This document shows positions 6,427 through 34,461 of a stretch of DNA of 64,000 bases, one piece after another. The DNA is from Actinoplanes teichomyceticus ATCC 31121 (GTDB taxonomy: Bacteria > Actinomycetota > Actinomycetes > Mycobacteriales > Micromonosporaceae). The first letter of the stretch is position 1; every line of letters starts with the position of its first letter. The notes below the pieces were generated by a model. That model had not been told where the DNA came from, made no database searches, and was given only the letters and a program-made list of their open reading frames with translations. Made by a program: the position numbers and the translations under genes. The stretch covers positions 2,629,001-2,693,000 of the forward strand of contig NZ_CP023865.1 of NCBI RefSeq assembly GCF_003711105.1, written 5' to 3'.

Positions 6427-6451
6427 ATTTCCTATGTGACCTATAGGAAAT
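6427..6451. promoter_or_regulatory. 25-bp palindrome, candidate operator of the ABC/monooxygenase operon
   Basis: Perfect inverted repeat ATTTCCTAT-N7-ATAGGAAAT, AT-rich in a very GC-rich background, placed 19 bases before the first ATG of the operon with the ribosome-binding site GAGAGAGGAGG immediately after it. The core TCCTAT-N7-ATAGGA recurs in related form at 24718-24737 and 34443-34461, each upstream of another predicted organosulfur gene. Confidence 0.8.
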
Positions 6452-6469
6452 AGAGAGAGGAGGTCGTCC

Positions 6470-8107
6470 ATGCGTCCCGTCCGCATCACCGCCGCCAGCC
6501 TTGTCGCCACCACCCTGCTGCTTCTCGCCGGCTGCTCGGCCGAGCCGTCCGGCGCCGCCGCCGGTCCCGGCGAGCCGGTCACCGGCGGCTCGCTGACCTG
6601 GGCCGTCGAGACCGAGCCGATCACCTTCAACCCGCACCAGTACGCCCAGGCCAAGACCCGCCTGCTGGTCTGGAACACCTTCGAGGCGCTGCTCACCCAC
6701 GACGACAAGGGTGGCTACCTGCCCTGGCTCGCCAGCGGCTACCAGGTCTCCCCGGACGGCCGGACCTACACGTTCGAGCTGCGCGGCGACGTCACCTTCA
6801 CCGACGGCACGAGATTCGACGCGGCCGCGGTCAAGGCCAACATCGATCAGCTGCGCACCGAGGGTTACGCGCCCACCGTCGCCGCCGTCCAGCTCAAGAA
6901 CCTCGACCGGGTCGAGGTGAAGGACGACACCACCGTCGTGTTCCACCTGAGCCGCCCGGACGTGCTCCTGCTCGACTTCCTCTCCTCGCCGCAGGGCGCC
7001 CAGGTGTCGCCGAGATCGCTGCGGGAGGCGAGGAACCTCAAGGCCGGCGGCCCGGAGCTGGCCGGCACCGGCCCGTTCGTGCTGGACCGCTACACGCCCG
7101 GCCAGGAGGTGCACTTCCGCCGGAACCCCGCCTACCACTGGGCGCCGGCCAACGCCGGGCACACCGGGCCGGCGTACCTGGACGAGATCACCTACCGGTT
7201 CCTCAAGGAGTCGTCGGTGCGCGTCGGCGCGCTGACCTCCGGGCAGGTGCAGGTGATCGAGGGCGTGCCGGCCACCGACGAAGCGTTGATCAGCGCGAAC
7301 CGGAACCTGGTCCTGCGGCGCGGGCTCAACTCCGGATCGGCGTACTCGTACTACTTCAACACCGCCCACGCGCCCTTCGACGACCCGCGGGTGCGCCAGG
7401 CGTTCCGGGAGGCGGTGGACGTGCCCGCGGTGCTGGCCGGGGTGTACCGCGACACCGCCACCCGGGCGTGGAGCGTGATCGGGCCGACCAGCCCGTTCTA
7501 CGACCGGACGCTGGAGGGCAGCTACGGCGGGAACGCCGCCGAGGCCAACGAGTTGCTCGACCGGGCCGGGTGGGCGACCCGCGACGCGCAGGGCTACCGG
7601 ACCCGGGACGGCAGACGGCTGACGGTACGCCTGGTGCAGTCCGCGCCGTTCGTCCGCGACCGCCGCGACGTGCTGGCCCAGGCGGTGCAGGCGGCGGTCA
7701 AGCAGAGCGCCGGCATCGACCTGCAGGTGCGGCTGGTCGACCAGGGCACCGCGACCCAGGCCCTGGCCGACGGCGAGTACGAGGTGTTCGACAACTCCCG
7801 CGCCGACACCGACGCCGGCGCCGCGCTGAACCTGCTGCTGCACTCCACCGGAGCGATCAACCGGACCGGTGTGCGCAGCGCCGAGCTGGACCGGCTGCTC
7901 GACGCGGGCGTGGCCAGCACCGATGCGGCGAAGCGGACCGCGGCGTACCGGACCCTGCAACGGCGGGTGGTCATCGAGCAGGCCCTGGCGCTGCCGCTCT
8001 ACGCGCCGCAGGACCAGATCGCCGCGGCCCGGACGGTCGGCGGCATCGGCTTCGAACCGACCGCCGGGGTCCCGGTCAGCGCCTACCACCTGTGGCTGGC
8101 CCAGTGA
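6470..8107 (+). CDS. ABC transporter substrate-binding lipoprotein (peptide/nickel/opine family 5)
   Basis: A 545-residue lipoprotein that should capture substrate outside the membrane and deliver it to the two permeases that follow. The signal peptide ends in the lipobox LLLAGC with lipidated Cys22. The mature protein shows the family-5 features GGSLTWAVETEPITFNPHQYA at the N-terminus, LASGYQVSPDGRTYTFELRG, and FDDPRVRQAFREAVDV. It heads a translationally coupled operon (stop overlaps the GTG of the next gene). Because the operon continues into four flavin monooxygenases and lies behind the sulfur-type palindrome, the cargo is more likely a small organosulfur compound than a peptide; this is inference. 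Confidence 0.88.
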   Translation: MRPVRITAASLVATTLLLLAGCSAEPSGAAAGPGEPVTGGSLTWAVETEPITFNPHQYAQAKTRLLVWNTFEALLTHDDKGGYLPWLASGYQVSPDGRTYTFELRGDVTFTDGTRFDAAAVKANIDQLRTEGYAPTVAAVQLKNLDRVEVKDDTTVVFHLSRPDVLLLDFLSSPQGAQVSPRSLREARNLKAGGPELAGTGPFVLDRYTPGQEVHFRRNPAYHWAPANAGHTGPAYLDEITYRFLKESSVRVGALTSGQVQVIEGVPATDEALISANRNLVLRRGLNSGSAYSYYFNTAHAPFDDPRVRQAFREAVDVPAVLAGVYRDTATRAWSVIGPTSPFYDRTLEGSYGGNAAEANELLDRAGWATRDAQGYRTRDGRRLTVRLVQSAPFVRDRRDVLAQAVQAAVKQSAGIDLQVRLVDQGTATQALADGEYEVFDNSRADTDAGAALNLLLHSTGAINRTGVRSAELDRLLDAGVASTDAAKRTAAYRTLQRRVVIEQALALPLYAPQDQIAAARTVGGIGFEPTAGVPVSAYHLWLAQ

Positions 8108-9018
8108 TCAGGCCGATCGCCCGGCGGGTCCTGACCGGGGTGACCGTGCTGTGGGCGGCGGCCACCGCGGCGTACCTCGCGCTGCTGGCCGCCCCCGGCG
8201 ACATGGTGGACAGCATCATCGGCGACGGCGCGGACACCCCGGGCATCCGTGCCGAGATCATCCGCGAGTGGCACCTCGACCGGCCCGCCGCCGTGCAGTA
8301 CCTGGACTACCTGTGGCGGGCCGCGCGCGGCGACCTGGGCCGGTCGTACCTGCTGCAGCGACCGGTCGCCGAGGTGATCGGCGCCCAGCTGGCACCGACG
8401 CTGAAACTGGCCGCCGCGGCGGCCGGGGTCGGCGTCGTGCTGGCCCTGACGCTGGCGCTCGCCGCCCGCCGGCCGTGGGCGCGCGGGCTGAGCTCGACCG
8501 TGGAGCTGGTGCTGGTCTCCACCCCGCCGTTCCTGATCGGGATCGTGCTGCTGAGCATCTTCTCGTTCCGGCTCGGCTGGTTCCCGGTCTCCGGTGACCG
8601 GGGCGCCGCCGCGCTGGTGCTGCCGGCCGTCACGCTCGGCCTGCCGGTCGCCGGGACGCTCGCCCAGGTGCTGCGCGACGGCCTGGACCGGGCCCTGGAG
8701 CAGCCGTTCGCGGTCACCGCCCGCGCGCGTGGGCTGCGCGAGAGCGCGGTGCTGGCCCGGCACGCGCTGCGGCACGCCCTGCTGAGCGGGGTCACCATGC
8801 TCGGCTGGATGTTCGGCGTGCTGGCCGGCGGCACCGTGATCATCGAGCAGGTGTTCGGCCGGCCCGGGCTCGGCCAGGTCGCCGTGCAGGCGGTCGGCGC
8901 CGGTGACATGCCCGTGGTGCTCGCGGTCGTGGTGCTCGGCGCGGCCGTCTTCGTGGTGATCAACACGCTCGCGGACCTCACCTACCTGATCATCGATCCC
9001 CGGCTGCGGAGGACCTGA
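8104..9018 (+). CDS. ABC transporter permease (DppB-like)
   Basis: A 304-residue inner-membrane permease of the oligopeptide/opine class. It starts with GTG inside the stop codon of the binding protein (GTGA overlap). N-terminal VLTGVTVLWAAATAAYLALLAAPGD and the DppB-type conserved stretch GDLGRSY...QLAPTLKLA are present; the ATPase-contact loop is RARGLRESAVLARHALRHALL (EAA-like), followed by the hydrophobic GTVIIEQVFGRPGLGQ segment that is diagnostic for this permease. It forms the channel with the DppC-like protein that follows two bases later. Confidence 0.9.
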   Translation: MIRPIARRVLTGVTVLWAAATAAYLALLAAPGDMVDSIIGDGADTPGIRAEIIREWHLDRPAAVQYLDYLWRAARGDLGRSYLLQRPVAEVIGAQLAPTLKLAAAAAGVGVVLALTLALAARRPWARGLSSTVELVLVSTPPFLIGIVLLSIFSFRLGWFPVSGDRGAAALVLPAVTLGLPVAGTLAQVLRDGLDRALEQPFAVTARARGLRESAVLARHALRHALLSGVTMLGWMFGVLAGGTVIIEQVFGRPGLGQVAVQAVGAGDMPVVLAVVVLGAAVFVVINTLADLTYLIIDPRLRRT

Positions 9019-9020
9019 CG

Positions 9021-9872
9021 ATGACCGTCGCCCTGACCCGGCCCCGCGCCGTGCGGCTGGCCGTGGGCCGGCCCCGCCCCGGTGTCACGCTCGCCGCCGT
9101 CTTCCTGGCCCTGGTGCTGACCGCGGCGGTGTGGCCGGCGCTGCTGGCCGGCGACCCGCTGGCCGCCGACCCGCTGCACGCGCTGCAGGCGCCCTCGGCC
9201 GGGCACCTGTTCGGCACCGACCAGCTCGGCCGGGACGTGTTCGACCGGGTGGTGCACGGCGCCCGCCACTCGCTGAGCATCGGGGTGGCGGCCACCGCCC
9301 TCGCGGTCGGCGCCGGCATCCTGCTCGGCCTGGTCGCCGGGTCCACCCACCGGCTCGCCGACGAGGCGCTCAGCCGCTCGTTCGACGCGCTGGCCGCCTT
9401 CCCGCTGGTGCTGCTGGCGTTGCTGTTCATCGCGCTCGCCGGGCCCGGCGCCACCAGCCTGATCGTGGCGATCGGGGTGGCGCTGGTGCCGCACTTCGCC
9501 CGGGTGGTGCGGGCACAGACGTTCGTGGTGCGCCGGGCCGCGTACGTCACGCACGCGGTCGCCTTCGGCGCCGGCCGGTCCCGCCTGGTGCTGCGCCACG
9601 TGCTGCCCAACGTGCTCGGCCCGGTCCCGGTGCTCGCGGTGATCGGGCTCGGTGAGGCGGTGCTGCTCGCCGCCGGGCTCAGCTTCCTCGGCATGGGACC
9701 GCAGCCGCCGTCGCCGGAATGGGGCGCGATGATCGCCGAGGGCCGCGGCTACCTGCACGTCGCCTGGTGGGCGTCGATCCTGCCGGGCGCCGCGGTCACC
9801 GCCACGATCCTCGCGCTCACCGTCGCCGGCCGTTTCCTGCAGCGCCGCTTCGAGGGACGGGACCTGCCATGA
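9021..9872 (+). CDS. ABC transporter permease (DppC-like)
   Basis: A 283-residue partner permease. The family hallmarks are the N-terminal HLFGTDQLGRDVFDRVVHGAR motif and the coupling loop AFGAGRSRLVLRHVLPNVLGP, then FLGMGPQPPSPEWGAMIAEGR near the C-terminus. It begins two bases after the upstream permease stop, and its own stop overlaps the ATG of the ATPase gene, so synthesis of the complex is tightly coupled. Confidence 0.9.
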   Translation: MTVALTRPRAVRLAVGRPRPGVTLAAVFLALVLTAAVWPALLAGDPLAADPLHALQAPSAGHLFGTDQLGRDVFDRVVHGARHSLSIGVAATALAVGAGILLGLVAGSTHRLADEALSRSFDALAAFPLVLLALLFIALAGPGATSLIVAIGVALVPHFARVVRAQTFVVRRAAYVTHAVAFGAGRSRLVLRHVLPNVLGPVPVLAVIGLGEAVLLAAGLSFLGMGPQPPSPEWGAMIAEGRGYLHVAWWASILPGAAVTATILALTVAGRFLQRRFEGRDLP

Positions 9873-11401
9873 TCCGGGTCGAGGACCTGCGGGTCACCTT
9901 CCACCTGCCCCGGCGCGCCGTCGAGGCGGTCCGCGGGGTCAGTTTCACCATCGAGTCCGGCGAGTGCGTGGCGATCGTCGGCGAGTCCGGCTCCGGCAAG
10001 AGCGTCACCGCCCGCAGCCTGGTCGGCCTGGCCGGTCCGGGCGCCCGGGTGGACGCCGCCCGGCTGGAGGTCGGCGGGCGGGACGCGCGCCGCTTCGCGC
10101 CGCGGGACTGGCGCCGGCTGCGCGGCGGGTTCGCCGCCCTGGTGCTGCAGGACGCCCTGGTCTCGCTCGACCCGCTGCGCACGGTGGGCGCGGAGATCGG
10201 TGAGGTCCTGCGGGTGCACGGCCAGGGTTCGCCCGCCGACCGTACGAGCCGGGTGCACCGCCTGCTGGAGGAGGTGCACGTGCCGGAGCCGGCGCGCCGG
10301 GCCAGGCAGTACCCGCATCAGCTCTCCGGCGGGCTGCGCCAGCGCGCGCTGATCGCCTCCGCCCTGGCCGGGCGCCCGAAGCTGCTGATCGCCGACGAGC
10401 CGACCACCGCCCTGGACGCCACCGTGCAGGCGCAGATCCTCGCCCTGCTCGCCGAGCGGCGGGCGGCCGGTCAGACGTTGCTGCTGATCAGCCACGACCT
10501 GGCCGTCGTCAGCCGGCTGGCCGACCGGATCCTGGTGATGCGGGACGGGCGGATCGTCGAGACCGGGACGACCCGGGCGCTGCTGTCCGGGGCCGGTCAT
10601 CCGTACACCAGGGGTCTGATCGCCGCCGCGCGGGGCCGCCGCCGGGAGCCGGCCGCCGAGCCCGGCCCGGTGGTCGCGCAGGCGACCGGGCTGCGCAAGG
10701 TCTACGGCGACCGCACCGTGCTGCACGGCGTCGACGTCGACGTGCGGCGCGGCGAGATCGTCGGCCTGGTCGGCGAGTCCGGCTCCGGCAAGACCACCGT
10801 GGCGCAGCTGCTGTTCGGGCTGATCGAGCCGACGTCCGGGCAGGTCCGCTTCGAGGGGCAGCGGTTCAGCGGGGTGAGCGAACGGTCCCGGCGGCCGATC
10901 CGCCGGCGGCTGCAGTTCATCGCCCAGGACCCGCTGTCGGCGTTCGACCCGCGCTGGACCGTGCGCCGCATCGTCGGCGAGGCGCTGCCCCGCGGCGCGA
11001 CCGTGGCCCCGGTCCTGGAGCGGGTGGGGCTCGGCGCGGACGTGCTGGACCGTTACCCGCGGCAGCTGTCCGGCGGGCAGCGGCAGCGTGTCGCCATCGC
11101 CCGCGCCATCGCGCCACGACCGAGTCTGATCATCTGCGACGAGCCGGTGTCCGCCCTGGACGTCTCGGTGCAGGCGCAGATCCTGGACCTGCTCGCCGGG
11201 ATCCGTGCGACCGACGGGACCGCGCTGCTGTTCATCTCGCACGACCTCGGCGTGATCCGCGACCTGGCCGACCGGGTGCTGGTCATGCACGACGGGCGGG
11301 TGGTGGAGCAGGGGCCGGTCCGGGCCGTCTTCGACCGGCCCGGACACGAGTACACCCGCAAACTGCTCGACGCCGTACCGAAACTGGAGGTTCCGGCATG
11401 A
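9869..11401 (+). CDS. fused ABC transporter ATPase (DppD-DppF type)
   Basis: A 510-residue double ATPase that powers the importer. The first nucleotide-binding domain has Walker A GESGSGKS at about residue 40, signature LSGGLRQR at about 152 and Walker [10 protein letters not shown]; the second repeats them as GESGSGKT (~302), LSGGQRQR (~400) and LIICDEPVS (~424). Each half ends with the oligopeptide-type tail (HPYTRGLI and HEYTRKLL). Fusion of the DppD and DppF halves is common in such actinobacterial importers. It overlaps both neighbours by four bases. Confidence 0.92.
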
Positions 11402-12396
11402 CATCGCACCTGGCGGTCGCCCTCGACGGCGACTCCTTCGACGCCGCCGACTGGGTGGCCCAGGTCCGCCTGGCCGACGAGGCCGGGCTGGACCTCGTCA
11501 CCTTCGAGGACAGCTTCGGCCGGCGCGGCCCGGACGCGGTGCTGGTCGCCTCCCGCGTCGCGCCGCTGACCCGGCACGTCGGGCTGGTCCCGGTCGCGAC
11601 GACCACCCACACCGAGCCGTTCCACCTGTCCACCGCCCTGGCCACGCTCGACCACGTCAGCCACGGGCGGGCCGGCTGGCAGGTGCGGGTCTCCGCCGAC
11701 CCGGCCGAGGCGGCGCTGCTCGGCCGGCGCGCGCCGCTCGGCTTCGACGAGCTGTTCGCCGAGGCCGCCGACGCGGTCGAGGTGGTCCGGCGGCTCTGGG
11801 ACAGCTGGGCGGACGACGCGATCATCAAGGACGTCGCCACCGGACGGTTCATCGACCGGGACAAGCTGCACTACATCGACTTCGCCGGGCCGTACTTCGC
11901 GGTCAAGGGCCCGTCGATCGTGCCGCGTCCGCCGCAGGGGCAGCCGGTGGTCGCGGCGCTGGCCCACGGCCCGCGGGTGTGGCAGCGCCTCGACGCCGAC
12001 GTCTACTTCACCACGCCCGCCGACGCGGACGCCGCCGCGCGCATCGTCCGGCAGATCCCGGCCGGGCGGAAGGTCTTCGCCGACCTGGTCGCCTTCCTCG
12101 ACGACGACCAGCGAACCGCGATCGGCCGCCGCGGCGCGGCCATCTCCGACGCCGCCGTCTTCGCCGGGACGCCCGCCGGGCTCGCCGACCTGATCGCCGC
12201 CTGGCAGCCGGCCGGGCTCGCCGGGTTCCGGCTGTGGCCCGGCGACCCGGCACACGACCTGCCCGCGATCACCCGCGAGCTGGTCCCCGAGCTGCGCCGG
12301 CGCGGGCTGTTCCAGCCGTCGGCCGCCACCACCCTGCGCGACCGGCTCGGCCTGCCGGCGGCCGTCAACCGTTACGAAGGAGCCGCACGTGCCTAA
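11398..12396 (+). CDS. LLM-class (luciferase-like) flavin-dependent oxidoreductase 1
   Basis: A 332-residue TIM-barrel flavoenzyme expected to use reduced FMN from a separate reductase. Luciferase-family features are the N-terminal AGLDLVTFEDSFG (strand 2), HVGLVPVATTTHTEPFHLST and TLDHVSHGRAGWQVRVS, close to the NtaA/DszA branch. It is shorter than the ~440-residue members of that branch. Its start overlaps the ATPase stop by four bases and its end overlaps the next monooxygenase by eight. No flavin reductase is encoded in the operon, so reductant must come from elsewhere. The substrate is unknown. Confidence 0.85.
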   Translation: MTSHLAVALDGDSFDAADWVAQVRLADEAGLDLVTFEDSFGRRGPDAVLVASRVAPLTRHVGLVPVATTTHTEPFHLSTALATLDHVSHGRAGWQVRVSADPAEAALLGRRAPLGFDELFAEAADAVEVVRRLWDSWADDAIIKDVATGRFIDRDKLHYIDFAGPYFAVKGPSIVPRPPQGQPVVAALAHGPRVWQRLDADVYFTTPADADAAARIVRQIPAGRKVFADLVAFLDDDQRTAIGRRGAAISDAAVFAGTPAGLADLIAAWQPAGLAGFRLWPGDPAHDLPAITRELVPELRRRGLFQPSAATTLRDRLGLPAAVNRYEGAARA

Positions 12397-13657
12397 GCAG
12401 ATCATCCTCGCGGCGCATTTCCCGGGCGTGAACAACACGACCGTGTGGAGCGACCCGCGCGCCGGCAGCCAGATCGCGTTCGCGTCGTTCGAGCACCTGG
12501 CGCGGACCGCCGAGCGCGGCCGGTTCGACTTCTTCTTCCTGGCCGAGGGGCTGCGGCTGCGCGAGCAGCGCGGCCTGATCCACGACCTGGACGTGGTCGG
12601 CCGCCCGGACACCCTGACCGTGCTCGCCGCGCTGGCCGCGGTGACCGAGCACCTCGGCCTGGCCGGCACCCTCAACGCCACCTACCACGAGCCGTACGAG
12701 CTGGCCCGCCAGCTGGCCACCCTCGACCACCTCTCCGGCGGCCGGGCCGCGTGGAACGTGGTCACCTCACCGGGCGGGTTCTTCGGCGCCAACTTCCGGC
12801 GCGGCGGCTTCCTCGACCACGCCGACCGGTACCTGCGCGCCGGAGAGTTCATCGAGGCCGCCCGGGCGCTGTGGGACTCCGACGGCGGCGACTTCGCGTA
12901 CCGCGGGCGGCAGTTCGACATCCGGGGCCGTTTCGGGGCGCCGCGCAGCCCGCAGGGCCACCCGGTGATCCTGCAGGCCGGTGACTCCGACGGCGGGCGC
13001 GAGCTGGCCGCGAAGTACACCGACGCGATCTTCTCCCGGCACCACCAGCTCGCCGACGCGCAGGAGTTCTACCGCGACGTCAAGAGCCGGCTGGCGCGGT
13101 ACGGCCGGGACCGGGACAGCCTGAAGATCATTCCCGGGGTGTCGTACGTGCTCGGCGACAGCGACGCCGACGCCCAGGAGAAGGCCCACCACATCCGGCG
13201 CCAGCAGGTCAGCCCGCAGACCGCGATCCTGCTGCTGGAGCAGCTGTGGAACCGGGACCTGTCCGGGTACGACCCGGACGGCCCGCTGCCGGAGATCGAC
13301 CCGCGGCTCGACGAGGACGACACCATCGTCCAGGGCCGGGCCGGCATGTACGCCGACCGGCTGCGGACCGCGAACGAGTGGCGGGCCCGCGCCGAGCAGA
13401 AGAACCTCGGCATCCGCGACCTGATCATCGAGGTGACCGGCCGGCAGAACTTCATCGGCACCCCGGCGCGGGTGGCGCAGCAGCTCGACGAGTACGTGCA
13501 GACCGACGCCTGCGACGGGTTCATCCTGGTCCCGCACCTGACCCCGACCGGCCTCGACGACTTCGTCGACCAGGTCGTGCCGCTGCTGCAGGAGCGCGGC
13601 GTGTTCCGCACCGAGTACGAGGCCGGCACGCTGCGCGGGAACCTGGGGCTGGCATGA
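12389..13657 (+). CDS. NtaA/DmoA/SnaA/DszA-family FMN-dependent monooxygenase
   Basis: A 422-residue FMNH2-dependent monooxygenase. The opening AHFPGVNNTTVW, the motif GRFDFFFLAEGLRLREQRG, HLGLAGTLNATYHEPYELAR, and the strongly conserved SGGRAAWNVVTSPGGFFG place it in the family that contains nitrilotriacetate, dimethylsulfide and dibenzothiophene-sulfone monooxygenases. Those enzymes cleave C-N or C-S bonds, which fits carbon-sulfur bond cleavage as the theme of this operon, though the exact substrate cannot be read from sequence. It overlaps its upstream neighbour by eight bases and its downstream neighbour by four. Confidence 0.9.
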   Translation: MPKQIILAAHFPGVNNTTVWSDPRAGSQIAFASFEHLARTAERGRFDFFFLAEGLRLREQRGLIHDLDVVGRPDTLTVLAALAAVTEHLGLAGTLNATYHEPYELARQLATLDHLSGGRAAWNVVTSPGGFFGANFRRGGFLDHADRYLRAGEFIEAARALWDSDGGDFAYRGRQFDIRGRFGAPRSPQGHPVILQAGDSDGGRELAAKYTDAIFSRHHQLADAQEFYRDVKSRLARYGRDRDSLKIIPGVSYVLGDSDADAQEKAHHIRRQQVSPQTAILLLEQLWNRDLSGYDPDGPLPEIDPRLDEDDTIVQGRAGMYADRLRTANEWRARAEQKNLGIRDLIIEVTGRQNFIGTPARVAQQLDEYVQTDACDGFILVPHLTPTGLDDFVDQVVPLLQERGVFRTEYEAGTLRGNLGLA

Positions 13658-14667
13658 GGTTCCTGCTGCTCACCCTGATCACGCACTTCGACCGGGACCG
13701 CAGCCCGGCGCGGCGCCTGCGCGAGGTGGTGGACAGCGCCGTCGTGGCCGAACAGCTCGGCTACGACGGCTTCGCCGTGGGGGAGCGGCACGAGCGGCCG
13801 TTCCTGTCCTCGGCCCCGCCCGTGGTGCTCAGCCACATCGCCGCGCACACCTCCACCATCCGGCTCTGGACCGGTGTCACCACGCTGAGCCTGCTCGACC
13901 CGGTCCGGGCCTTCGAGGACTACAGCACCCTGGACAACCTCTCCGACGGACGCCTCGAACTGATCATCGGCAAGGGCAACGGCGCCGCCCAGGCCCGGCT
14001 GTTCCACGTCACCACCGACGACCAGTGGGACCGGCTGCGGGAGGGCTACGAGCTGTTCCGGCGGCTGTGGCGCGAACCCCGGGTCACCTGGTCCGGGCGG
14101 TTCCGGCCGCCGCTGACCGACGCCGAGACCTGGCCCCGGCCGCTGCAACAGCCGATCACCGTCTGGCACGGCAGCGCCACCAGCCGGGCCTCGGTCGAGC
14201 TGGCCGCGGAGTACGGCGACCCGCTGTTCTCCGCGAACGTCACCCACCCGATCGAGCCGTACGCCGAGCTCATCGACCACTACCGGGAGCGCTGGGCGGC
14301 GCACGGCCACGACCCGGCGGCGATCCGGATCGGCGCGGGCACCGCCGGCTTCCACGTGGCCCGCACCTCGCAGGAGGCGCTGGCGGCGTACCGGCCGGTC
14401 TGGCAGGCCCGGGTCGAACAGTTCCGCCGGGTCGGCGTGGAACCGGTCTTCCCGACCGTGGAGGACGCCGTCGAGCGCAGCTCCGCGCTGATCGGCAGCC
14501 CGCAACAGATCATCGACAAGGTGCACCGCTATCACGAGCGGTTCGGTCACGAGGTCATCCACCTGGCCGCCGACACCGAGGGACTGACCGAGAAGCAGCA
14601 GCGGGCCAGCCTGGAACTGTTCGCCAGCGATGTCGCCCCCGTCTTACGCCAGTTGAAAGGGCGGTAG
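13654..14667 (+). CDS. LLM-class flavin-dependent oxidoreductase 2
   Basis: A 337-residue luciferase-like protein of the two-component type. It shows FAVGERHERPFLSSAPPVVLSHIA, the strand TIRLWTGVTTLSLLDPVR, the glycine-rich LSDGRLELIIGKGNG, and a C-terminal GSPQQIIDKVHRYHERFG segment typical of the family. ATG 13654 overlaps the upstream stop. It is clearly a different subfamily from the two enzymes before it, so the operon carries divergent monooxygenases, not recent duplicates. Confidence 0.87.
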   Translation: MRFLLLTLITHFDRDRSPARRLREVVDSAVVAEQLGYDGFAVGERHERPFLSSAPPVVLSHIAAHTSTIRLWTGVTTLSLLDPVRAFEDYSTLDNLSDGRLELIIGKGNGAAQARLFHVTTDDQWDRLREGYELFRRLWREPRVTWSGRFRPPLTDAETWPRPLQQPITVWHGSATSRASVELAAEYGDPLFSANVTHPIEPYAELIDHYRERWAAHGHDPAAIRIGAGTAGFHVARTSQEALAAYRPVWQARVEQFRRVGVEPVFPTVEDAVERSSALIGSPQQIIDKVHRYHERFGHEVIHLAADTEGLTEKQQRASLELFASDVAPVLRQLKGR

Positions 14668-14671
14668 AGCC

Positions 14672-15790
14672 ATGCCCGTACCCCTCTCGATCCTCGACCT
14701 CGCCCCGCTGGTCGCCGGCGGCGACGTCGGCGACGCCCTGCGCCGCACCCTGGATCTCGCGCGCCACGCCGAACAGTTCGGCTACCACCGGTACTGGGTC
14801 GCCGAGCACCACTTCACCCCCGGGGTCGCCTCGGCGGAGCCGGCGCTGCTGCTCGGCCAGATCGCCGCGGTCACCGACCACATCCGGCTCGGCTCCGGCG
14901 CGGTGCAGACCGGCCACCGGACCGCCGCGTCCATCGTCGAGCAGTTCGGGCTCCTCGACGCGCTCTACCCGGGCCGCTTCGACCTCGGCCTCGGGCGGTC
15001 CGGGCAGGCCAAGAAGGAGGCGCTGCGGGCCGAGGCGGCGGCCGCGGTCCCGGCCCGCGCGGAGGTCGTCGACGGGCTGCTGATCCCGGAACCGTTCTCC
15101 TGGGCGCCGATCTTCGCCTCCGAGCGCAGCGCGCTGATCGGCCGGCTGCTGCAGCAGCCGGGCGCGGAGTCGCTGCCGCTCGGCGAGATCCTCGACCAGA
15201 TCCAGACGCTGCTCGCCGGGCCGTACTCCGACGGGCGCGGCAACGAGGTCACGGCGGTGCCCGGGGCGGGCGCCGACCTGCGGCTGTGGCTGCTCGGCAG
15301 CAGCGGCGGGGAGAGCGCCCGCACGGCCGGGGCGCGCGGCCTGCCCTTCGTGGCGAACTATCACGTGGCCCCGGCCCGGGTGATCGAGGCGGCCGAGGCG
15401 TACCGGGCGGCGTTCCGGCCGTCGGCGACGCTCGCCGAGCCGTACCTGATGGTCTCGGCGGACGTGGTGGTCGCCGAGGACGACCAGACGGCGCGACGCC
15501 TGGCCGCGCCGTACGCGCTGTGGGTGCGCAGCATCCGGACCGGGCTCGGCGCGATCCCGTTCCCCAGCGAGCGGGAGGCCGCCGCGTACGAGTGGAGCGA
15601 CCACGACCGCGCCCTCGTCGCCGACCGGGTGGCGACCCAGTTCGTCGGCTCCCCGGCGACGGTCACCGAGCGGCTGGAGACGCTGCGCCGGGTCACCGGC
15701 GCGGATGAGCTGCTGGTCACGACGATCACCCACCGGCACGCCGACCGGGTCCGCTCCTACGAGCTGCTGGCCAAGGAGTGGGCCGGATAG
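14672..15790 (+). CDS. LLM-class flavin-dependent oxidoreductase 3 (MsnO8-like)
   Basis: A 372-residue luciferase-like enzyme and last gene of the operon. The opening LSILDLAPLVAGGD, HRYWVAEHHFTPGVASAEPA, HIRLGSGAVQTGHR and YPGRFDLGLGRSGQ follow the bacterial-luciferase-like family with conserved AEHH. It starts four bases after the preceding stop with GGGCGG upstream. The operon ends 15 bases before the stop of the convergent sigma-factor gene and no strong hairpin is visible in that short gap. Confidence 0.87.
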   Translation: MPVPLSILDLAPLVAGGDVGDALRRTLDLARHAEQFGYHRYWVAEHHFTPGVASAEPALLLGQIAAVTDHIRLGSGAVQTGHRTAASIVEQFGLLDALYPGRFDLGLGRSGQAKKEALRAEAAAAVPARAEVVDGLLIPEPFSWAPIFASERSALIGRLLQQPGAESLPLGEILDQIQTLLAGPYSDGRGNEVTAVPGAGADLRLWLLGSSGGESARTAGARGLPFVANYHVAPARVIEAAEAYRAAFRPSATLAEPYLMVSADVVVAEDDQTARRLAAPYALWVRSIRTGLGAIPFPSEREAAAYEWSDHDRALVADRVATQFVGSPATVTERLETLRRVTGADELLVTTITHRHADRVRSYELLAKEWAG

Positions 15791-22919: not shown

Positions 22920-23684
22920 TCAGCGGACCCGGGACAGGAACGCCCGGGTCCGCAGGTGCCGTGGATCGTCGAGCACCCGCGCGGGCGGGCCCTGCTCGAC
23001 GATCCGGCCCTCGTCCATGAAGATCACGGTGTCCGCGGCCTCCCGGGCGAAGCCGATCTCGTGCGTCACCACGATCATCGTGGTGCCGCTGCGGGCCAGT
23101 TCCCGGAGTACGTCGAGCACCTCGGCGACCAGTTCGGGGTCGAGCGCGGACGTGGGCTCGTCGAAGAGGATGAGCCGGGGTTCCAGGGCCAGCGCCCGGG
23201 CGATCGCGACGCGCTGCTGCTGGCCGCCGGAGAGCTGCCGGGGATAGGCGCCGGCCCGGTCGGCCAGCCCCACCCGGGCCAGCAGCTCGCGGGCCCGTTC
23301 GTAGGTCTGCGCCCGGGGCCGGCGCAACGCCGCGATCGGCGCCTCGGCCACGTTCTCCAGGGCGGTCAGGTGCGGGAACAGGTTGAAGTTCTGGAAGACG
23401 AAGCCGATGCGGGAACGCTGCCGCAGGATCTGCCGTTCGCTCAGCTCGTACAGCCGGTTGCCGCTGCGGCGGTAACCGATCAGCTCGCCGTCGACCCGGA
23501 CCCGGCCGCGGTCCACCTTCTCCAGGTGGTTGATGGTGCGCAGCAGGGTGGACTTGCCGGAGCCGGAGGGTCCCAGGATGACGGTGACCGTGCCGGCCTC
23601 GGCGGTCAGGTCGATGCCGCGCAGCACGTGTAGAGCACCGAACGACTTGTGGACGCCGGCGAGCTCGACGACCGGGGTGCTCAT
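22920..23684 (-). CDS. amino-acid ABC transporter ATPase
   Basis: A 254-residue ATPase of the GlnQ/HisP type. It contains Walker A GPSGSGKSTLLRTINHLE, FVFQNFNLFPHLTALENV, signature [16 protein letters not shown], Walker B LILFDEPTSALDPELV and VVTHEIGFAREAADTVIFMD. ATG 23684 overlaps the stop of the permease gene (ATGA). It energises uptake with the permease and lipoprotein encoded on either side. Confidence 0.93.
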   Translation of the reverse strand: MSTPVVELAGVHKSFGALHVLRGIDLTAEAGTVTVILGPSGSGKSTLLRTINHLEKVDRGRVRVDGELIGYRRSGNRLYELSERQILRQRSRIGFVFQNFNLFPHLTALENVAEAPIAALRRPRAQTYERARELLARVGLADRAGAYPRQLSGGQQQRVAIARALALEPRLILFDEPTSALDPELVAEVLDVLRELARSGTTMIVVTHEIGFAREAADTVIFMDEGRIVEQGPPARVLDDPRHLRTRAFLSRVR

Positions 23685-24607
23685 CCGCGGATCGCCGCCC
23701 TCAGCCGCTGCCACGGGGTGGGTGGCAGGACGCGCACGGCGCCCCGGGCGAAGCGCCGCTCCACGTGGTACTGCAGGACGGAGAGCAGGGCGGTGAGGAT
23801 GACGTACCAGACGGTGGCGACCATCAGCAGCGGCACGACCCGGCCGTTGCGGCCGTAGATCACCTGGACCTGGTAGAACAGCTCGCCGATCGCCAGCACG
23901 TACACGATCGAGGTGCTCTTGAGCAGGTTGATCAGCAGGTTCGCGGCGTTGGGCAGGATCGCGCGCATCGCCTGCGGCAGCACGATGCGCAGGAACTGCC
24001 GGCGCCGGGGCAGCCCCAGGGCGGCGGCCGCCTCGTGCTGGCCCTGGTCGACGCTGAGCAGCCCGGCGCGGATGATCTCGCCGGCGTAGGCGGCCTCGTG
24101 CAGCGCCAGCCCGAGCAGGGCCGCGCCGAACGAGCTGATCAGGCTGGTCGTGCCGAACGACCAGCCGGGCCCGAACGGGACGCCGATCTGCAGCGTGTCG
24201 TAGAGGTAGCCGAGGTTGGCCCAGAACAGCAGCTGCACCAGCAGCGGCACGGACCGGAACACCCAGATGTAGGTCCAGCTCACGGCGGTCAGGACCGGGT
24301 TGCCGGACAGGCGCATGGCGGCCAGCGGGATGCCGCCGAGGAAGCCCAGCACCGCGCCGGCCAGGGTCAGTTCGAGCGTGACCAGCAGCGCGTGCAGGAC
24401 CGACTTCTCCAGGAAGTAGCCGGCGAAGGCCGGCCAGTCCCAGCCGGGATTGGTGGCCAGCCCGTGCCCGAACTGGGCGAGCAGGACCAGCACCAGGGCG
24501 GTGCCGGCCCAGCGGCCGGGGTGGCGGGCCGGCACGACGACGAGCTCGCCGGACGCTTCGGCCTCGCCGGTGCCGCGAGGCGGGGAGAGGACGCTCACGA
24601 GGCTCAA
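23681..24607 (-). CDS. amino-acid ABC transporter permease
   Basis: About 308 residues, a single permease of the polar amino-acid (His/Glu/Gln) class. FLEKSVLHALLVTLELTLAGA, WTYIWVFRSVPLLVQLLFW and the EAA loop QHEAAAALGLPRRRQFLRIVLPQAM are the family signatures, with five or more hydrophobic segments. The start is uncertain: TTG 24607 is the longest choice and GTG 24598 an alternative; neither has a strong ribosome-binding site. First gene of its operon, divergent from the sulfonate-type importer. Confidence 0.87.
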   Translation of the reverse strand: MSLVSVLSPPRGTGEAEASGELVVVPARHPGRWAGTALVLVLLAQFGHGLATNPGWDWPAFAGYFLEKSVLHALLVTLELTLAGAVLGFLGGIPLAAMRLSGNPVLTAVSWTYIWVFRSVPLLVQLLFWANLGYLYDTLQIGVPFGPGWSFGTTSLISSFGAALLGLALHEAAYAGEIIRAGLLSVDQGQHEAAAALGLPRRRQFLRIVLPQAMRAILPNAANLLINLLKSTSIVYVLAIGELFYQVQVIYGRNGRVVPLLMVATVWYVILTALLSVLQYHVERRFARGAVRVLPPTPWQRLRAAIRG

Positions 24608-24717
24608 CGTAGGTACCCGGCCGGATCACCCACAAGTCCTACGGGTCCAATATGTTTTACGACCTGGTTACGTCGATCCATCTGGCGGGACGATGCTCGT
24701 GCACCATTGCCATTAAG

Positions 24718-24737
24718 TCCATCGGTACGATAGGAAT
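24718..24737. promoter_or_regulatory. degenerate copy of the TCCTAT-N7-ATAGGA motif
   Basis: In the 168-base divergent region between the two ABC operons, TCCAT-N7-ATAGGAAT is read on the plus strand; on the minus strand it is ATTCCTAT-N7-ATGGA, one intact half-site with the same 7-base spacer as the perfect palindrome at 6427-6451. It lies about 40 bases before the sulfonate importer start. Confidence 0.5.
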
Positions 24738-24775
24738 ACCAGGCATTGTCACGTACCTCTGCCTGGAGTTTTCCC

Positions 24776-25630
24776 GTGACCACCTTGCTTGCCCCGGCCG
24801 CCGCGCCGGAGAGTTCGGCGAAGCCGGCGCCGGCGCTCGCCCCCGGCGGCGGTCTGCGCCGCCGCATCGCCCTGCGCGTCGTGGCGCTGCTCGCGCTGGG
24901 CCTGCTCTGGGAGATCGCGGCCCGGGCGCTGGACAACCCGGCCTTCATCCCGTCGCCCGGCGCGGTCTGGCGCCAGCTCGTGCTGACCTCGACCACCCAC
25001 GACGGCCTCCGCGGTTACAGCGGCCACCTGCTCGTCGAGCACCTGGGCGTCAGCCTGCGCCGGATCGTGATCGGCTCGGCCGTCGGGGTCGCCGCCGGCC
25101 TGCTGATCGGCGTGCTGCTCGGCACGGTCGGCTGGCTGCGGGTGATCGCCGAGCCGGTGGTCACCTTCGTCCGGGCGCTGCCCCCGCTGGCGTACTTCAG
25201 CCTGTTCATCATCTGGTTCGGCATCGACGAGACCCCCAAGCTGTGGCTGCTGTCGATCGCCGCGCTGCCGCCGGTCGCGGTGGCCACCGCCGCCGCGGTG
25301 CACGGCGCCCCGTCCGGCCTGGTCGAGGCGGCCCGCGCGCTGGGCGCCGGCCGCTGGCGGACGATCCGCGACGTGGTGCTGCCCAGCGCGCTGCCGGAGA
25401 TCTTCACCGGGATCCGGCTGGCGGTCGGTGTCGCCTACTCCTCGGTGGTGGCCGCCGAGACGATCAACGGGGTGCCCGGGATCGGCGGCATGATCCGCGA
25501 CGCGCAGCGCTACTCGCAGACCGACGTGGTGGTGCTCGGACTCTTCGCCATCGGCCTCTCCGGCCTGCTCATCGACGCCCTGCTGCGGATCGCCGAGGAA
25601 CGGCTGATCCCGTGGCGCGGCATTAGTTAA
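24776..25630 (+). CDS. ssuC: sulfonate/taurine-type ABC transporter permease
   Basis: A 284-residue permease of the nitrate/sulfonate/taurine class. It has ALRVVALLALGLLWEIAARA, PSPGAVWRQL, VTFVRALPPLAYFSLFIIWF (class motif) and the EAA loop EAARALGAGRWRTIRDVVLP, ending LLRIAEERLIPWRG. I chose GTG 24776 since GGAG is 8 bases upstream; a TTG 30 bases earlier is less likely. First gene of a permease-receptor-ATPase operon. Symbol is by family; taurine versus alkanesulfonate specificity is not resolved. Confidence 0.85.
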   Translation: MTTLLAPAAAPESSAKPAPALAPGGGLRRRIALRVVALLALGLLWEIAARALDNPAFIPSPGAVWRQLVLTSTTHDGLRGYSGHLLVEHLGVSLRRIVIGSAVGVAAGLLIGVLLGTVGWLRVIAEPVVTFVRALPPLAYFSLFIIWFGIDETPKLWLLSIAALPPVAVATAAAVHGAPSGLVEAARALGAGRWRTIRDVVLPSALPEIFTGIRLAVGVAYSSVVAAETINGVPGIGGMIRDAQRYSQTDVVVLGLFAIGLSGLLIDALLRIAEERLIPWRGIS

Positions 25631-25640
25631 GGACATCCCG

Positions 25641-26669
25641 ATGAAGAAGTTGCTCGCTGCCGTTTCCGCGTTCTCCGTCCTGCTCGTCGCCGCCTGCGGC
25701 AACGGCGCCGCCAGCGGGGGAGGCGACGCGTCCAACAAGGCGATCCGGATCGCCTACCAGGCGTTCCCGAGCGGCGACCTGATCGTCAAGAACCAGGGGC
25801 TGCTGGAGAAGGCGCTGCCGGACTACCGGATCACCTGGACCAAGTTCGACTCCGGCGCCAGCATCAACACCGCGTTCGTGGCCAAGAGCCTGGACATCGC
25901 GGCGATCGGCTCCAGCCCGGTCGCGCGGGGCCTGTCCGCGCCGCTGAACATCCCGTACCAGGTGGCCTTCGTGCTGGACGTGGCGGGGGACAACGAGGCG
26001 CTGGTGGCCCGCAACGGCTCCGGCATCACCGGCGTCGCCGGGTTGCGGGGCAAGAAGGTGGCCACGTCGTTCGCCTCCACCGCGCACTACAGCCTGCTCG
26101 CCGCGCTGGCGCAGGCCGGCGTCAAGGAGTCCGAGGTGAACATCGTCGACCTGGAGCCGCAGGACATCCAGGCCGCGTGGGGCCGTGGCGACCTGGACGC
26201 GGCCTACACCTGGCTGCCCGTGCTGGACGAGATCCGCAAGACCGGCAAGGTACTGATCACCAGCCGGCAGCTGGCCACCGCCGGCAAGCCCACCCTGGAT
26301 CTGGGCGTGGTCTCCACCGCGTTCGCCGACGCGCACCCGGAGGCGGTCGACGCCTGGCGCAAGGCGCAGGCGCAGGCGCTGGACCTGATCGCCGAGGACC
26401 CGGCCGCCGCGTCCCAGGCGGTCGGCGCCGAGCTCAACCTCCCCGCCGCCGACGCGCTCAACCAGCTCAAGCAGGGCGTCTTCCTCAAGCCGGCGGACAT
26501 CGCGTCGCCGGAGTGGCTGGGCACCGAGGGCAACGTCGGCAAGCTCGCCGACAACCTGGTCAGCGCCGCCGAGTTCCTCAAGTCCCAGCAGAAGATCGAC
26601 GCCGTGCCGACGCTGGACGCGGTCAAGAAGGCCGTCTACGTCAAGGGGCTGCCCAGTGTCCTCGGCTGA
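25641..26669 (+). CDS. taurine/sulfonate ABC transporter substrate-binding lipoprotein
   Basis: A 342-residue receptor with lipobox VLLVAACG (Cys19). The mature protein follows the TauA/SsuA pattern: IRIAYQAFPSGDLIVKNQGL, ITWTKFDSGASINTAFVAKS, LDIAAIGSSPVARGLSAPLN, LRGKKVATSFASTAHYSLLA and DLEPQDIQAAWGRGDLDAAY. IGSSP at the ligand pocket suits taurine-like ligands in the family. It sits 10 bases after the permease stop, and its end overlaps the ATPase gene start by 14 bases. Confidence 0.88.
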   Translation: MKKLLAAVSAFSVLLVAACGNGAASGGGDASNKAIRIAYQAFPSGDLIVKNQGLLEKALPDYRITWTKFDSGASINTAFVAKSLDIAAIGSSPVARGLSAPLNIPYQVAFVLDVAGDNEALVARNGSGITGVAGLRGKKVATSFASTAHYSLLAALAQAGVKESEVNIVDLEPQDIQAAWGRGDLDAAYTWLPVLDEIRKTGKVLITSRQLATAGKPTLDLGVVSTAFADAHPEAVDAWRKAQAQALDLIAEDPAAASQAVGAELNLPAADALNQLKQGVFLKPADIASPEWLGTEGNVGKLADNLVSAAEFLKSQQKIDAVPTLDAVKKAVYVKGLPSVLG

Positions 26670-27414
26670 CGCGGTCGCCCTGGAGGCGGTGACGCGCTCC
26701 TACGGCGACGTCACCGCCGTCGGGCCGGTGGACCTGACCGTCCCGGCCGGCGAGTTCCTGGTCCTGGTCGGCGCGTCCGGGTGCGGCAAGAGCACCCTGC
26801 TGCGGCTGATCGCCGGCTTCGAACAGCCGACCTCGGGCACGGTCCGGACGGCCGGCGCGGCGCCGGTGCCCGGCCGCGGCGCCGGACTGGTCTTCCAGCA
26901 GCCCCGGCTGTTCCCGTGGAAGACGGTGGGCGGCAACATCGGGCTCGCGCTGCGGTACGCCGGGCAGCCGGCCACCCCGGAACGGGTGGACGAGCTGCTG
27001 GCCCGGGTCGGGCTGCACGACGTGGCGCACCGGCGCACCTGGCAGATCTCCGGCGGCCAGCAGCAGCGGGTGGCGATCGCCCGGGCCCTCGCCGTGGACA
27101 ATCCGCTGCTGTTGCTGGACGAGCCGTTCGCGGCGCTGGACGCGCTGACCCGCGAGCGCCTGCAGGACGACCTGCGCCGGGTCAGCGAGGCGTCCGGGCG
27201 TACCTGTGTCTTCGTCACGCACAGCGTCGACGAGGCGGTCTTCCTCGGCAGCCGGGTCGTGGTGCTGACCCCGCGGCCCGGGCGGATCGCGCTGGACCTG
27301 CCGATCGGGCTGCCGCGCAGCGGGGTCCCGGCCGGTGAGCTGCGCGGCTCGCCGGAGTTCGCGGCGCTGCGCGCCGAGGTGGGCCACGCCATCCGGGACC
27401 GGGCGGGCGTCTGA
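26656..27414 (+). CDS. ssuB: sulfonate/taurine ABC transporter ATPase
   Basis: A 252-residue ATPase. It shows Walker [39 protein letters not shown] (typical of SsuB/TauB), signature [17 protein letters not shown], Walker [17 protein letters not shown] and [23 protein letters not shown] 26656 lies inside the receptor gene. No taurine dioxygenase follows; the matching SsuD-like oxygenase is about 7 kb away. Confidence 0.9.
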
Positions 27415-31039: not shown

Positions 31040-31119
31040 GCTCCACCGTCGATTCCCCGCGTCGCGGTTCAGGTGACGTGCCTGATCGGCCGCGGGACCG
31101 GTGATCTGAGGGAAAGACA

Positions 31120-31163: not shown

Positions 31164-31200
31164 CCGCCCACCCGCACCGTCCGCGGGTGGCCGGGGCCGA

Positions 31201-32880: not shown

Positions 32881-32903
32881 GGCGAGGAACGGTAGCAGGC
32901 AAC

Positions 32904-32915
32904 TAACACGTGTTA
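32904..32915. promoter_or_regulatory. palindrome TAACACGTGTTA upstream of alpha-glucosidase
   Basis: A perfect 12-base palindrome 24 bases before the glucosidase start codon (minus strand), in the gap behind the LacI-type regulator gene. The position fits repression by promoter occlusion. A second, different palindrome lies 22 bases further upstream. Confidence 0.6.
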
Positions 32916-32937
32916 CATAGGTCGCGCGTGCTTTCTT

Positions 32938-32955
32938 TCTGCAAGTTCTTGCAGA
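32938..32955. promoter_or_regulatory. inverted repeat TCTGCAAG-TT-CTTGCAGA, likely LacI/MalR-type operator
   Basis: Perfect 8-base arms separated by TT, AT-richer than its surroundings. The CTTGCAG element is, from memory, the repeat recognised by streptomycete MalR/AglR-like LacI regulators of maltodextrin genes, which matches a LacI regulator on one side and a GH13 enzyme on the other. Confidence 0.7.
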
Positions 32956-32961
32956 CGGTGC

Positions 32962-34020
32962 TTATGCCGGTTTTGCGGCCGACTCCCGGACGATCAGCGA
33001 CGTGCCGAGCAGCTGATGCGGGTGCTGGTCCTCGCCCCGGATCGCGGAGATCAGGAAATCGGCGGCGATCCGCCCCTTGGCCACGATCGGCTGCCGCACG
33101 GTGGTCAGCCGCGGCCGGAACCAGGCCGACTCGGCCAGATCGTCGAAACCGGTCACCGACACCTCGCCCGGCACGTCCACGCCGAGCTCCTGCAACGCGT
33201 CCACGGCCCCGAAGGCGAGCACGTCGGACAGCGCCAGGATCGCGGTCGGCCGTGCCGCGGCGCTCATCAGCTCCCGGGTGGCCCGGTATCCGTCGGTACG
33301 CGTCACCGGCACCTCGGCCAGCCGTACGTCCGACATGGTCAATCCGGCCTCGGCGAGCGCGTCGCCGATCCCGGCCAGCCGCCGGGCCAGCGGCCCCCGG
33401 TAGCCGCGCGCCGGCACCCCCGGCCCCGGGTCGATGGAGAGCACCGCGAGCCGCCGGTGCCCCAGCTCCAGCAGGTAGCGGGCCACCTCCCGGGCCCCGC
33501 CGCGGTCGTCGACCTCGACGCTGGGCGCGCCCTCGTGCCGGTCGGAGTCGATCAGCACGAACGGGATCCCGCGCCGGTCCAGCTCGGCCACCTCGCCGCG
33601 GTCGATCTCCAGACCGCAGACGACGAACCCGTCCACCGCCGCGTACGGGATCGCCTTGAGCACCGAGTCCTGCAGCGGCGGGGTCAGCAGCAGCGTGTAC
33701 CCCTCCTGGTCGCACACCTGCCCGGCGCCCATCAGGAACCGCGAGTAGTACGGGTTCTCCAGGATCTGCGCCAGCCGCTGCGGCAGCAGCACCCCGATCG
33801 AGTTGGTGGTACCGGCCTGCAGCATCCGCCCCAGCGTGTTCGGCGTGTAGCCGAGCTCCTCGGCGGCCGCCAGGATCCGCTCCCGGGTCGCCGACGAGAT
33901 CCGCTGCGGGTTGTTGAACGCGAATGACACGGCCGACCGGGAGACCCCCGCCGCCGCGGCGACGTCGCTGGAGGTGGGCTTGCCCGCCCTCGCCGCGCTG
34001 CTGGCCTTCCTAGACGGCAT
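32962..34020 (-). CDS. LacI-family transcriptional regulator (maltodextrin-type)
   Basis: A 352-residue repressor. The HTH lies at residues ~16-40 (TSSDVAAAAGVSRSAVSFAF) with hinge NNPQRISSATRERILAAAEE; the periplasmic-binding-like ligand domain follows (SIGVLLPQRLAQILENPYYS through VSVTGFDDLAESAWFRP and TTVRQPI). ATG 34020 is the only start consistent with the HTH position. It is upstream of, and co-oriented with, the alpha-glucosidase gene, with two palindromes between them, so it probably regulates that gene in response to a maltose-type sugar and perhaps itself. Confidence 0.92.
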   Translation of the reverse strand: MPSRKASSAARAGKPTSSDVAAAAGVSRSAVSFAFNNPQRISSATRERILAAAEELGYTPNTLGRMLQAGTTNSIGVLLPQRLAQILENPYYSRFLMGAGQVCDQEGYTLLLTPPLQDSVLKAIPYAAVDGFVVCGLEIDRGEVAELDRRGIPFVLIDSDRHEGAPSVEVDDRGGAREVARYLLELGHRRLAVLSIDPGPGVPARGYRGPLARRLAGIGDALAEAGLTMSDVRLAEVPVTRTDGYRATRELMSAAARPTAILALSDVLAFGAVDALQELGVDVPGEVSVTGFDDLAESAWFRPRLTTVRQPIVAKGRIAADFLISAIRGEDQHPHQLLGTSLIVRESAAKPA

Positions 34021-34187
34021 CCACGCTCCCCGGGGTCGGCGCCCACCATAACGCAGTGGCCCGGCGCCGCCGGTGACCCCGCCGTCCCGGCCGGCCCGAG
34101 TCGGCACGAGAGGCCGGCATGGGTTCGCGGCGGCGGGGTATTCCGACGGTCGTAGGCAACGCGGACTCGAGCCCCCGGAGGCGCACG

Positions 34188-34361
34188 ATGGCTTTTGATG
34201 ACAAGGTCGACAACAAGGCCGAGGAGATGGGCGGCAAGGTCAAGGAGGGCGTCGGCCGGGCGACCGACGACGAACGTCTCGAGGCCGAGGGCCGGGCGGA
34301 CCAGACCAGCGCCAACCTCAAGCAGGCCGGCGAGAAGATCAAGGACGTCTTCAAGTCTTGA
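34188..34361 (+). CDS. CsbD-family small stress protein
   Basis: A 57-residue, highly charged, helical protein. FDDKVDNKAEEMGGKVKEGV followed by GRATDDERLEAEGRADQTSA is the standard CsbD pattern. Relatives are induced by general stress sigma factors and are very abundant, but their molecular role is unknown. GGAGGCGCACG precedes ATG 34188. It is followed by a strong terminator and is monocistronic. Confidence 0.93.
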   Translation: MAFDDKVDNKAEEMGGKVKEGVGRATDDERLEAEGRADQTSANLKQAGEKIKDVFKS

Positions 34362-34372
34362 CGGGGTGCGGG

Positions 34373-34406
34373 GAATCGGGCCGGGGCGAGCGCCCCGGCC
34401 CGATTC
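34373..34406 (+). terminator. terminator after csbD-like gene
   Basis: Perfect 15-base arms GAATCGGGCCGGGGC (34373-34387) and GCCCCGGCCCGATTC (34392-34406) with loop GAGC, eleven bases after the stop codon. Confidence 0.85.
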
Positions 34407-34442
34407 GTGTCCGGCGGGCCCGGCGCCGATCTCGCCGAGCCC

Positions 34443-34461
34443 TCCTATTCAGCCGATGGGA
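34443..34461. promoter_or_regulatory. TCCTAT-N7-ATGGGA motif upstream of ssuD-like gene
   Basis: Left half identical and right half 5 of 6 to the perfect palindrome at 6430-6448, with the same 7-base spacer. It ends 21 bases before the start codon of the SsuD-like gene, the same position as in the first operon. Confidence 0.65.

Follow-up and report, generated by a model that had tools for sequence, protein, structure and literature searches.

The window considered here, a stretch of 64,000 nucleotides (nt) of the Actinoplanes teichomyceticus genome (positions 2,629,001-2,693,000 of one 8,287,152-base contig), carries a short palindrome at three places, each in front of a separate organosulfur unit. 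This palindrome, its conservation in the genus Actinoplanes and the Rrf2-family protein that probably binds it are described below. An earlier note on the window gave the motif as TCCTAT-N7-ATAGGA; its refined form is CCYAT-N7-ATAGG, the best form being CCTATC-N5-GATAGG. The three sites are:

6427..6451, no strand assigned: site 1, a perfect palindrome of 25 base pairs (bp) with 9-bp arms and a 7-bp spacer; predicted operator of the 6470-15790 operon
24713..24739, + strand: site 2, one half degenerate, TCCATC-N5-GATAGG; predicted operator of the sulfonate-type importer operon
34442..34465, + strand: site 3, CCTATT-N5-GATGGG; predicted operator of the SsuD-like gene

Site 1 has the sequence ATTTCCTAT-GTGACCT-ATAGGAAAT and is followed 21 nt on by the ATG at 6470. 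Site 3 (TCCTAT-TCAGCCG-ATGGGA, 34443-34461) has one exact half and one half matching at 5/6 positions, and the ATG at 34483 follows after 21 nt. Site 2 as a whole extends from 24717 to 24735, 40 nt from the predicted start at 24776; its right half, ATAGGA (24730-24735), is exact, while the left half shows 3/6 mismatches in the frame of the earlier note, and the whole site 2/12 in the refined frame. The description given in that note, including distances of about 20-40 bases to the start codon, was thus accurate, apart from the coordinates of site 2, which had been put at 24718-24737. The claim that such palindromes are unexpected by chance holds for site 1 alone: with up to three mismatches, the window contains five matches versus 2.3 expected, and 8/100 shuffles reach five. 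Sites 2 and 3 are indefensible from the window alone, and they are defended here because they are conserved at orthologous promoters.

The genes preceded by these sites, along with a divergent importer gene, are the following, with bit scores set against the curated cut-offs:

6470..8107, + strand: family-5 extracellular substrate-binding protein, substrate unknown, scoring under all listed NCBIfam cut-offs
8104..9018, + strand: Opp/Dpp/Nik-type permease
9021..9872, + strand: Opp/Dpp/Nik-type permease
9869..11401, + strand: double ATP-binding subunit
11398..12396, + strand: luciferase-like monooxygenase, NtaA/DmoA-like, below cut-off
12389..13657, + strand: NtaA/DmoA family monooxygenase dependent on flavin mononucleotide (FMN), 385 bits, cut-off 279.7
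13654..14667, + strand: luciferase-like monooxygenase, CE1758/Atu2307-like, below cut-off
14672..15790, + strand: MsnO8 family luciferase-like oxidoreductase, 306 bits, cut-off 167
23681..24598, - strand: permease of a divergent amino-acid importer, best match a cystine permease, 129 bits, cut-off 300
24776..25630, + strand: first gene of the sulfonate-type importer, a permease by position; the frame as given has no NCBIfam match at 1e-5
25641..26669, + strand: taurine/sulfonate-type substrate-binding protein, TauA 218 bits, cut-off 304
26656..27414, + strand: taurine/sulfonate-type ATP-binding subunit, below cut-off
34483..35631, + strand: SsuD-like alkanesulfonate monooxygenase dependent on reduced FMN (FMNH2), 443 bits, equivalog cut-off 518

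These units correspond to those previously described, most of the proteins being below the curated cut-offs for precise names, and among the genes scanned no regulator gene adjoins any of the three sites; site 2 and a LysR gene are separated by about 3.5 kb. The divergent importer, with its permease closest to cystine permeases, could be part of the same sulfur regulon. At 24637-24661 there is another conserved element, TCCTAY...ATATGTTTWACG-like, located roughly 60-80 nt upstream of site 2 and closer to this divergent importer. It is present in 14/26 orthologous loci examined, and may be either a half-degenerate second operator or the site of another regulator.

Orthologues of the SsuD-like, family-5 and taurine-type proteins were identified in 58, 39 and 51, respectively, of 67 genus genomes. 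The promoters of the best 30 loci of each set, the own genome included, were scored over about 200 nt up to the start, three mismatches at most being allowed. A site was present in 29/30 SsuD promoters (shuffles 5.4%), 27/30 family-5 promoters (5.7%) and 29/29 taurine-type promoters (6.6%; one of the 30 loci was too short to score). The SsuD promoters showed the exact consensus in 5/30 cases and a single mismatch in 13/30, and sites within one mismatch amounted to 4/29 in the taurine-type and 9/30 in the family-5 promoters. Over the 85 sites with three mismatches or fewer, C2, A4 and T14 are invariant and T5, G16 and G17 rarely vary, a pattern which the selection itself favours. In the taurine-type loci L292 and L304 and the family-5 locus L287, another element, ending in ATATG, gives the best match; L292 also carries a proper site with two mismatches and L304 one with four, and none was seen beside the element in L287. 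In the family-5 locus L284, the site lies 92 nt off. Judging from the sequences compared, the palindrome is genuine and has been conserved in evolution as a site of Actinoplanes, a genus taken here in the broad GTDB sense, as the names of the regulator's orthologues suggest.

The exact pattern CCTATC-N5-GATAGG occurs 49 times in 36 genus genomes (23/36 with one), as against three times for the reversed control, and is absent from 24 genomes representing other families in the same order, where the control gives two. Genes were predicted with a codon-usage finder and neighbours were classified by reading. None of the 49 sites is located wholly inside a predicted gene (one, in L087, overlaps the 3' end of a gene), and 47 have a predicted start no more than 120 nt off, with the gene running away from the site. 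The largest group (16/49) is that of a locus carrying a Trans_reg_C gene, an FMN reductase and an oxidoreductase dependent on flavin adenine dinucleotide (FAD), followed by the sites at a GCS2 gene or its usual unknown neighbour (11/49; in L055, only the latter). Four sites precede an rrf2 gene with a taurine-type importer and four are at cysteine dioxygenase genes; TauE/SafE exporters, SsuD genes and family-5 importers account for two each. Single sites are associated with an SfnB-like gene (222 bits, cut-off 431) accompanied by a flavin reductase and an SsuD-like gene, with an SsuABC-type importer and a monooxygenase, and with an NlpA/MetN-type importer. The last five show no evident sulfur link, having among their neighbours zinc carboxypeptidase, redoxin-like, DUF1684 and DUF4331/AraC genes and a gene read as carbonic anhydrase. 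By neighbour, 15 sites are therefore plainly linked to sulfur or organosulfur compounds, 29 by association only and five not at all.

In the A. teichomyceticus genome, TCCTAT-N7-ATAGGA is matched exactly at two places and with one mismatch at three more. It was from these matches that the sharper CCTATC-N5-GATAGG was derived, which has four exact places, the reversed control giving none. Patterns with two mismatches were discarded as too noisy (20 matches versus 21 in the control, and 75 versus 59). A sequence-only profile, R1, was built from 57 sites, all from other genomes. With 150 of 165 first-look candidates scored, it gave 15 matches in nine places at E<=10:

6,545,184 (pattern match 6,545,189): SsuE-like FMN reductase (78 bits, cut-off 164) and divergent Trans_reg_C gene
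2,351,979 (pattern match 2,351,983): GCS2 gene, the one listed NCBIfam match being EgtA (159 bits, cut-off 371)
5,292,176 (pattern match 5,292,178): second family-5 importer
412,671 (pattern match 412,676): cysteine dioxygenase and rhodanese
5,260,012 (pattern match 5,260,016, one mismatch): NMT1/SsuA-type importer, then an NtaA/DmoA-family monooxygenase (566 bits, cut-off 280)
2,653,713, 2,635,427 and 2,663,442: window sites 2, 1 and 3, respectively
7,473,287: in front of rrfA and its SsuABC-type importer

The best match is the one at the Trans_reg_C / FMN reductase locus, and the window sites 1, 2 and 3 score 14.9, 16.0 and 11.5 bits. A further one-mismatch match, at 839156, was set aside: it lies in a stretch with few predicted genes and is not reported by R1. 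The SsuD paralogue at 2048609 carries no site. The genes behind the nine places fit organosulfur, thiol or flavin-reductase use, some by association only, the weak members being the two family-5 importers of unknown substrate and the GCS2 gene with its sub-threshold EgtA match. As the earlier note had proposed, one motif stands before separate organosulfur loci, and its matches in the genome do not look random relative to sulfur genes, subject to the reservation that most of these loci had orthologues in the training set.

The gene which we call rrfA in this analysis (G000:C1:7473346-7473759) is the first of an operon also encoding an SsuA-family binding protein, directly after rrfA (SsuA_fam, 201 bits, cut-off 163.5), an ATPase and a permease. 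Four genus loci have the exact site in front of an Rrf2 gene of this kind (about 123-142 predicted amino acids) followed by a sulfonate-type importer. In A. teichomyceticus, the palindrome CCCATC-CAACA-GATAGA lies directly behind a putative promoter, TTGACG-N18-CACTAT. Among rrfA orthologues, a site with at most three mismatches was found in 30/30 genus loci, the own genome included, 10-47 nt upstream of the aligned start, and in 47/47 loci named as belonging to the Actinoplanes clade (L150-L194, L199, L201; species overlap is likely), within 60 nt. Plantactinospora has a site with one mismatch. No clear site was seen in Virgisporangium (three loci) or Micromonospora (four loci, in three of which the upstream region looks coding), and none of nine Streptomyces Rrf2 loci has one. 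In Phycicoccus, related Rrf2 genes (L213, L215, L219) have CCTA...TAGG-like repeats, differing from the motif by 2-4 mismatches, 53-94 nt upstream, a hint that operators of this kind may form a wider family. In the rrfA promoter, the putative -10 element and the palindrome are covered by a larger inverted repeat, CTATCTGTT...AACAGATAG (L133 8275-8309, G000:C1:7473274-7473308), so that more than one dimer may bind there.

RrfA matches the Rrf2 superfamily model TIGR00738 over residues 1-129 of 137 (107.6 bits, cut-off 73.3), and its orthologue in L066 matches Pfam Rrf2. The helix and wing signature of the family is Lx3Gx6Gx2GGx2L in the excerpts of a published account (PMC9338935). In 29 RrfA sequences, L48, G59, G62, G63 and L66 of this signature are invariant and G52 is nearly so. 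The AlphaFold model (mean predicted local distance difference test score, pLDDT, 88.9) consists of helices and a two-strand wing, and the sequence matches solved chains of IscR and CymR as well as another Rrf2-family regulator, 6hsd, which we take to be RsrR. The CymR equivalog model NF047409 is not reached (65 bits, cut-off 195). No cysteine occurs in the aligned segments of 78/78 orthologous loci of at least 72% identity (with species overlap); the usual cysteine-ligated cluster therefore cannot be held by this protein. Three other Rrf2 paralogues of the genome have no comparable palindrome upstream and were rejected as binders for that reason; one of them adjoins a gene read as flavohaemoglobin and is probably NsrR-like. 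The second Rrf2 paralogue (G000:C1:6527558-6528013, L134) has about 50% identity to RrfA, no palindrome upstream and 93 bits against the CymR model (cut-off 195); almost every genus genome encodes a counterpart at a similar level of identity. In G024, the rrfA operon adjoins genes read as cysteine dioxygenase and rhodanese.

The palindrome is probably the operator of an Actinoplanes sulfur-scavenging regulon, and its binder is most likely RrfA, a predicted cysteine-free winged-helix repressor of the Rrf2 family. Several findings weigh against this interpretation. Most proteins encoded downstream of the sites fall under the curated cut-offs for precise names; 11/49 exact sites lie by the GCS2 gene or its neighbour and 5/49 by genes with no evident sulfur link. 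R1 is not fully independent, its training set having held orthologues of most of the loci recovered. For a second profile, R2, the SsuD, family-5 and taurine-type sites were removed together with one SsuABC-type site; it was built from 25 sites, of which 15 had been selected with the exact pattern. It gave five places in the own genome, all among the nine of R1, and, with 150 of 405 first-look candidates scored, recovered no window site; when the window alone is scanned, sites 1-3 still occupy its best three places, at E values of 0.07, 1.7 and 2.3. The profile R3, built from ten rrfA operators alone, misses all three. Run over nine own-genome loci, it finds the operator of rrfA itself, 6,545,184 and 2,351,979, but not 412,671, 5,260,012 or 5,292,176. 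Since leave-group-out profiles miss or barely see them, the window sites are the weak, degenerate end of the motif. The distribution of rrfA provides further exceptions. The gene (at least 76% identity) and an R1 match at E<=0.5 under stricter filters were each detected in 65/67 genus genomes and were both present in 64/67, G008 having neither. G022, a draft of about 100 contigs, has no rrfA and keeps a one-mismatch site before its Trans_reg_C gene; in G024, RrfA is diverged (76%), the operator has decayed to four mismatches and there is no R1 match. Since rrfA is present in 65/67 genomes, its co-occurrence with the motif says little.

The main rival binder is the Trans_reg_C protein, an OmpR-type winged-helix protein of about 172 amino acids encoded beside the SsuE-like FMN reductase, with the strongest site in its promoter. 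On that account, which we regard as unlikely, the operator would still be sulfur-related and the rrfA operon merely another target. It draws on the share of exact sites at this locus (16/49, by reading) and the best profile match in the own genome, on the relatives of the protein in 67/67 genus genomes (at only 49% identity in G008), and on the site kept in G022 in the absence of rrfA; it remains the main rival because of this ubiquity and because the exceptions for rrfA and for the motif do not coincide. Against it stand the site retained before rrfA in 30/30 loci and the fact that autoregulation is usual in the Rrf2 family, while OmpR-type C-domains usually read direct repeats. A division of the sites between two related regulators, RrfA acting on CCYATC-N5-GATAGR and another protein, such as an Rrf2 paralogue, on the window loci with their differing inner positions, is less probable still. 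It is true that profiles lacking the window families pick up the window sites poorly or miss them, but the forms grade into each other, with exact and one-mismatch sites among the SsuD, taurine-type and family-5 promoters, and R2, having been drawn largely from exact-pattern sites, gives little weight to variants. That AT-rich palindromes simply happen to lie near starts is scarcely conceivable: the window count taken alone (five versus 2.3) would allow it, but conservation at orthologous promoters exceeds that in shuffles and the genus excess is 49 to 3. As to the Trans_reg_C protein itself (L099 4611-5989, G000:C1:6544610-6545988), its OmpR-type C-domain stands alone after an uncharacterised N-terminus, and in many genus genomes its gene adjoins those of the SsuE-like FMN reductase and putative secreted proteases.

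From the sites, their conservation, the gene neighbourhoods and the site in front of rrfA, we infer the following mode of action for RrfA. It would act as a dimer that recognises both half sites, CCYAT and ATAGG. When sulfur is plentiful, it would block transcription at its targets, its own operon included, since most of the sites are located 10-70 nt ahead of the start codon, overlapping or adjoining the putative core promoter; a repressor fits both this position and the presence of a site before the regulator's own gene. Upon cysteine or sulfide shortage, a signal would lift the repression, possibly O-acetylserine, acting directly or via cysteine synthase as with CymR; RrfA, which has no cysteine, would depend on a ligand or a partner in the same way. 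The genes derepressed would be those of the importers, the FMN monooxygenases, the SsuE-like flavin reductase and the cysteine dioxygenase and rhodanese.

How the use of sulfonates and other organosulfur compounds is switched on is poorly known in Actinobacteria outside Corynebacterium. With a named candidate, a defined site, a scannable pattern and nine places predicted as targets, this question becomes directly testable. Regulon membership would also point the family-5 importer and the four monooxygenases encoded with it, whose substrate is unknown, to organosulfur uptake. Among the titles and abstracts listed in searches of open-licence literature, no description was found of this motif, this regulon or an Rrf2 regulator in this role.

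The closest known system is Bacillus CymR, an Rrf2 protein with no iron-sulfur (Fe-S) cluster exerting global control over sulfur metabolism (PMC9338935, in excerpt). In B. subtilis, the excerpted accounts have it repressing cysteine-synthesis genes, including the sulfonate genes (ssu) (PMC3828012), and being released when O-acetylserine rises and its complex with CysK falls apart (PMC3828012, PMC9338935). RrfA resembles CymR of B. subtilis and Staphylococcus aureus in its family, its predicted lack of a cluster and its putative part in sulfur control, and differs from it in its low score against the CymR model and in heading an SsuABC-type operon. IscR, NsrR, RsrR and RirA, the Fe-S regulators, are members of the same family, but RrfA does not have their conserved cysteine ligands. 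The proposed role of RrfA, the transcriptional control of sulfur or sulfonate genes, is shared with McbR and CysR of Corynebacterium and with CysB/Cbl of Gram-negative bacteria, which belong to the TetR, ROK and LysR families, respectively, and not to Rrf2. Among Actinobacteria, the CymR/Rrf2-like protein IGTS8_peg394 of Rhodococcus qingshengii IGTS8, a strain described in the excerpts of the report as having no homologues of the known global sulfur regulators, has been proposed as a global sulfur regulator on the basis of proteomics, having been detected only in dibenzothiophene culture (PMC8557817). It is, like RrfA, an actinobacterial Rrf2 protein proposed to act in sulfur control; unlike RrfA, it is given no binding site or regulon in these excerpts, and no sulfur genes in its immediate neighbourhood (PMC8557817). 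On balance, we lean towards viewing RrfA as an Rrf2 master regulator of organosulfur scavenging, the first from Actinobacteria for which an operator and a regulon are defined. It would be a Micromonosporaceae-specific relative of a more widely distributed actinobacterial Rrf2 protein and, being cysteine-free, would sense sulfur status via a metabolite or a partner enzyme rather than via a thiol or an Fe-S cluster.

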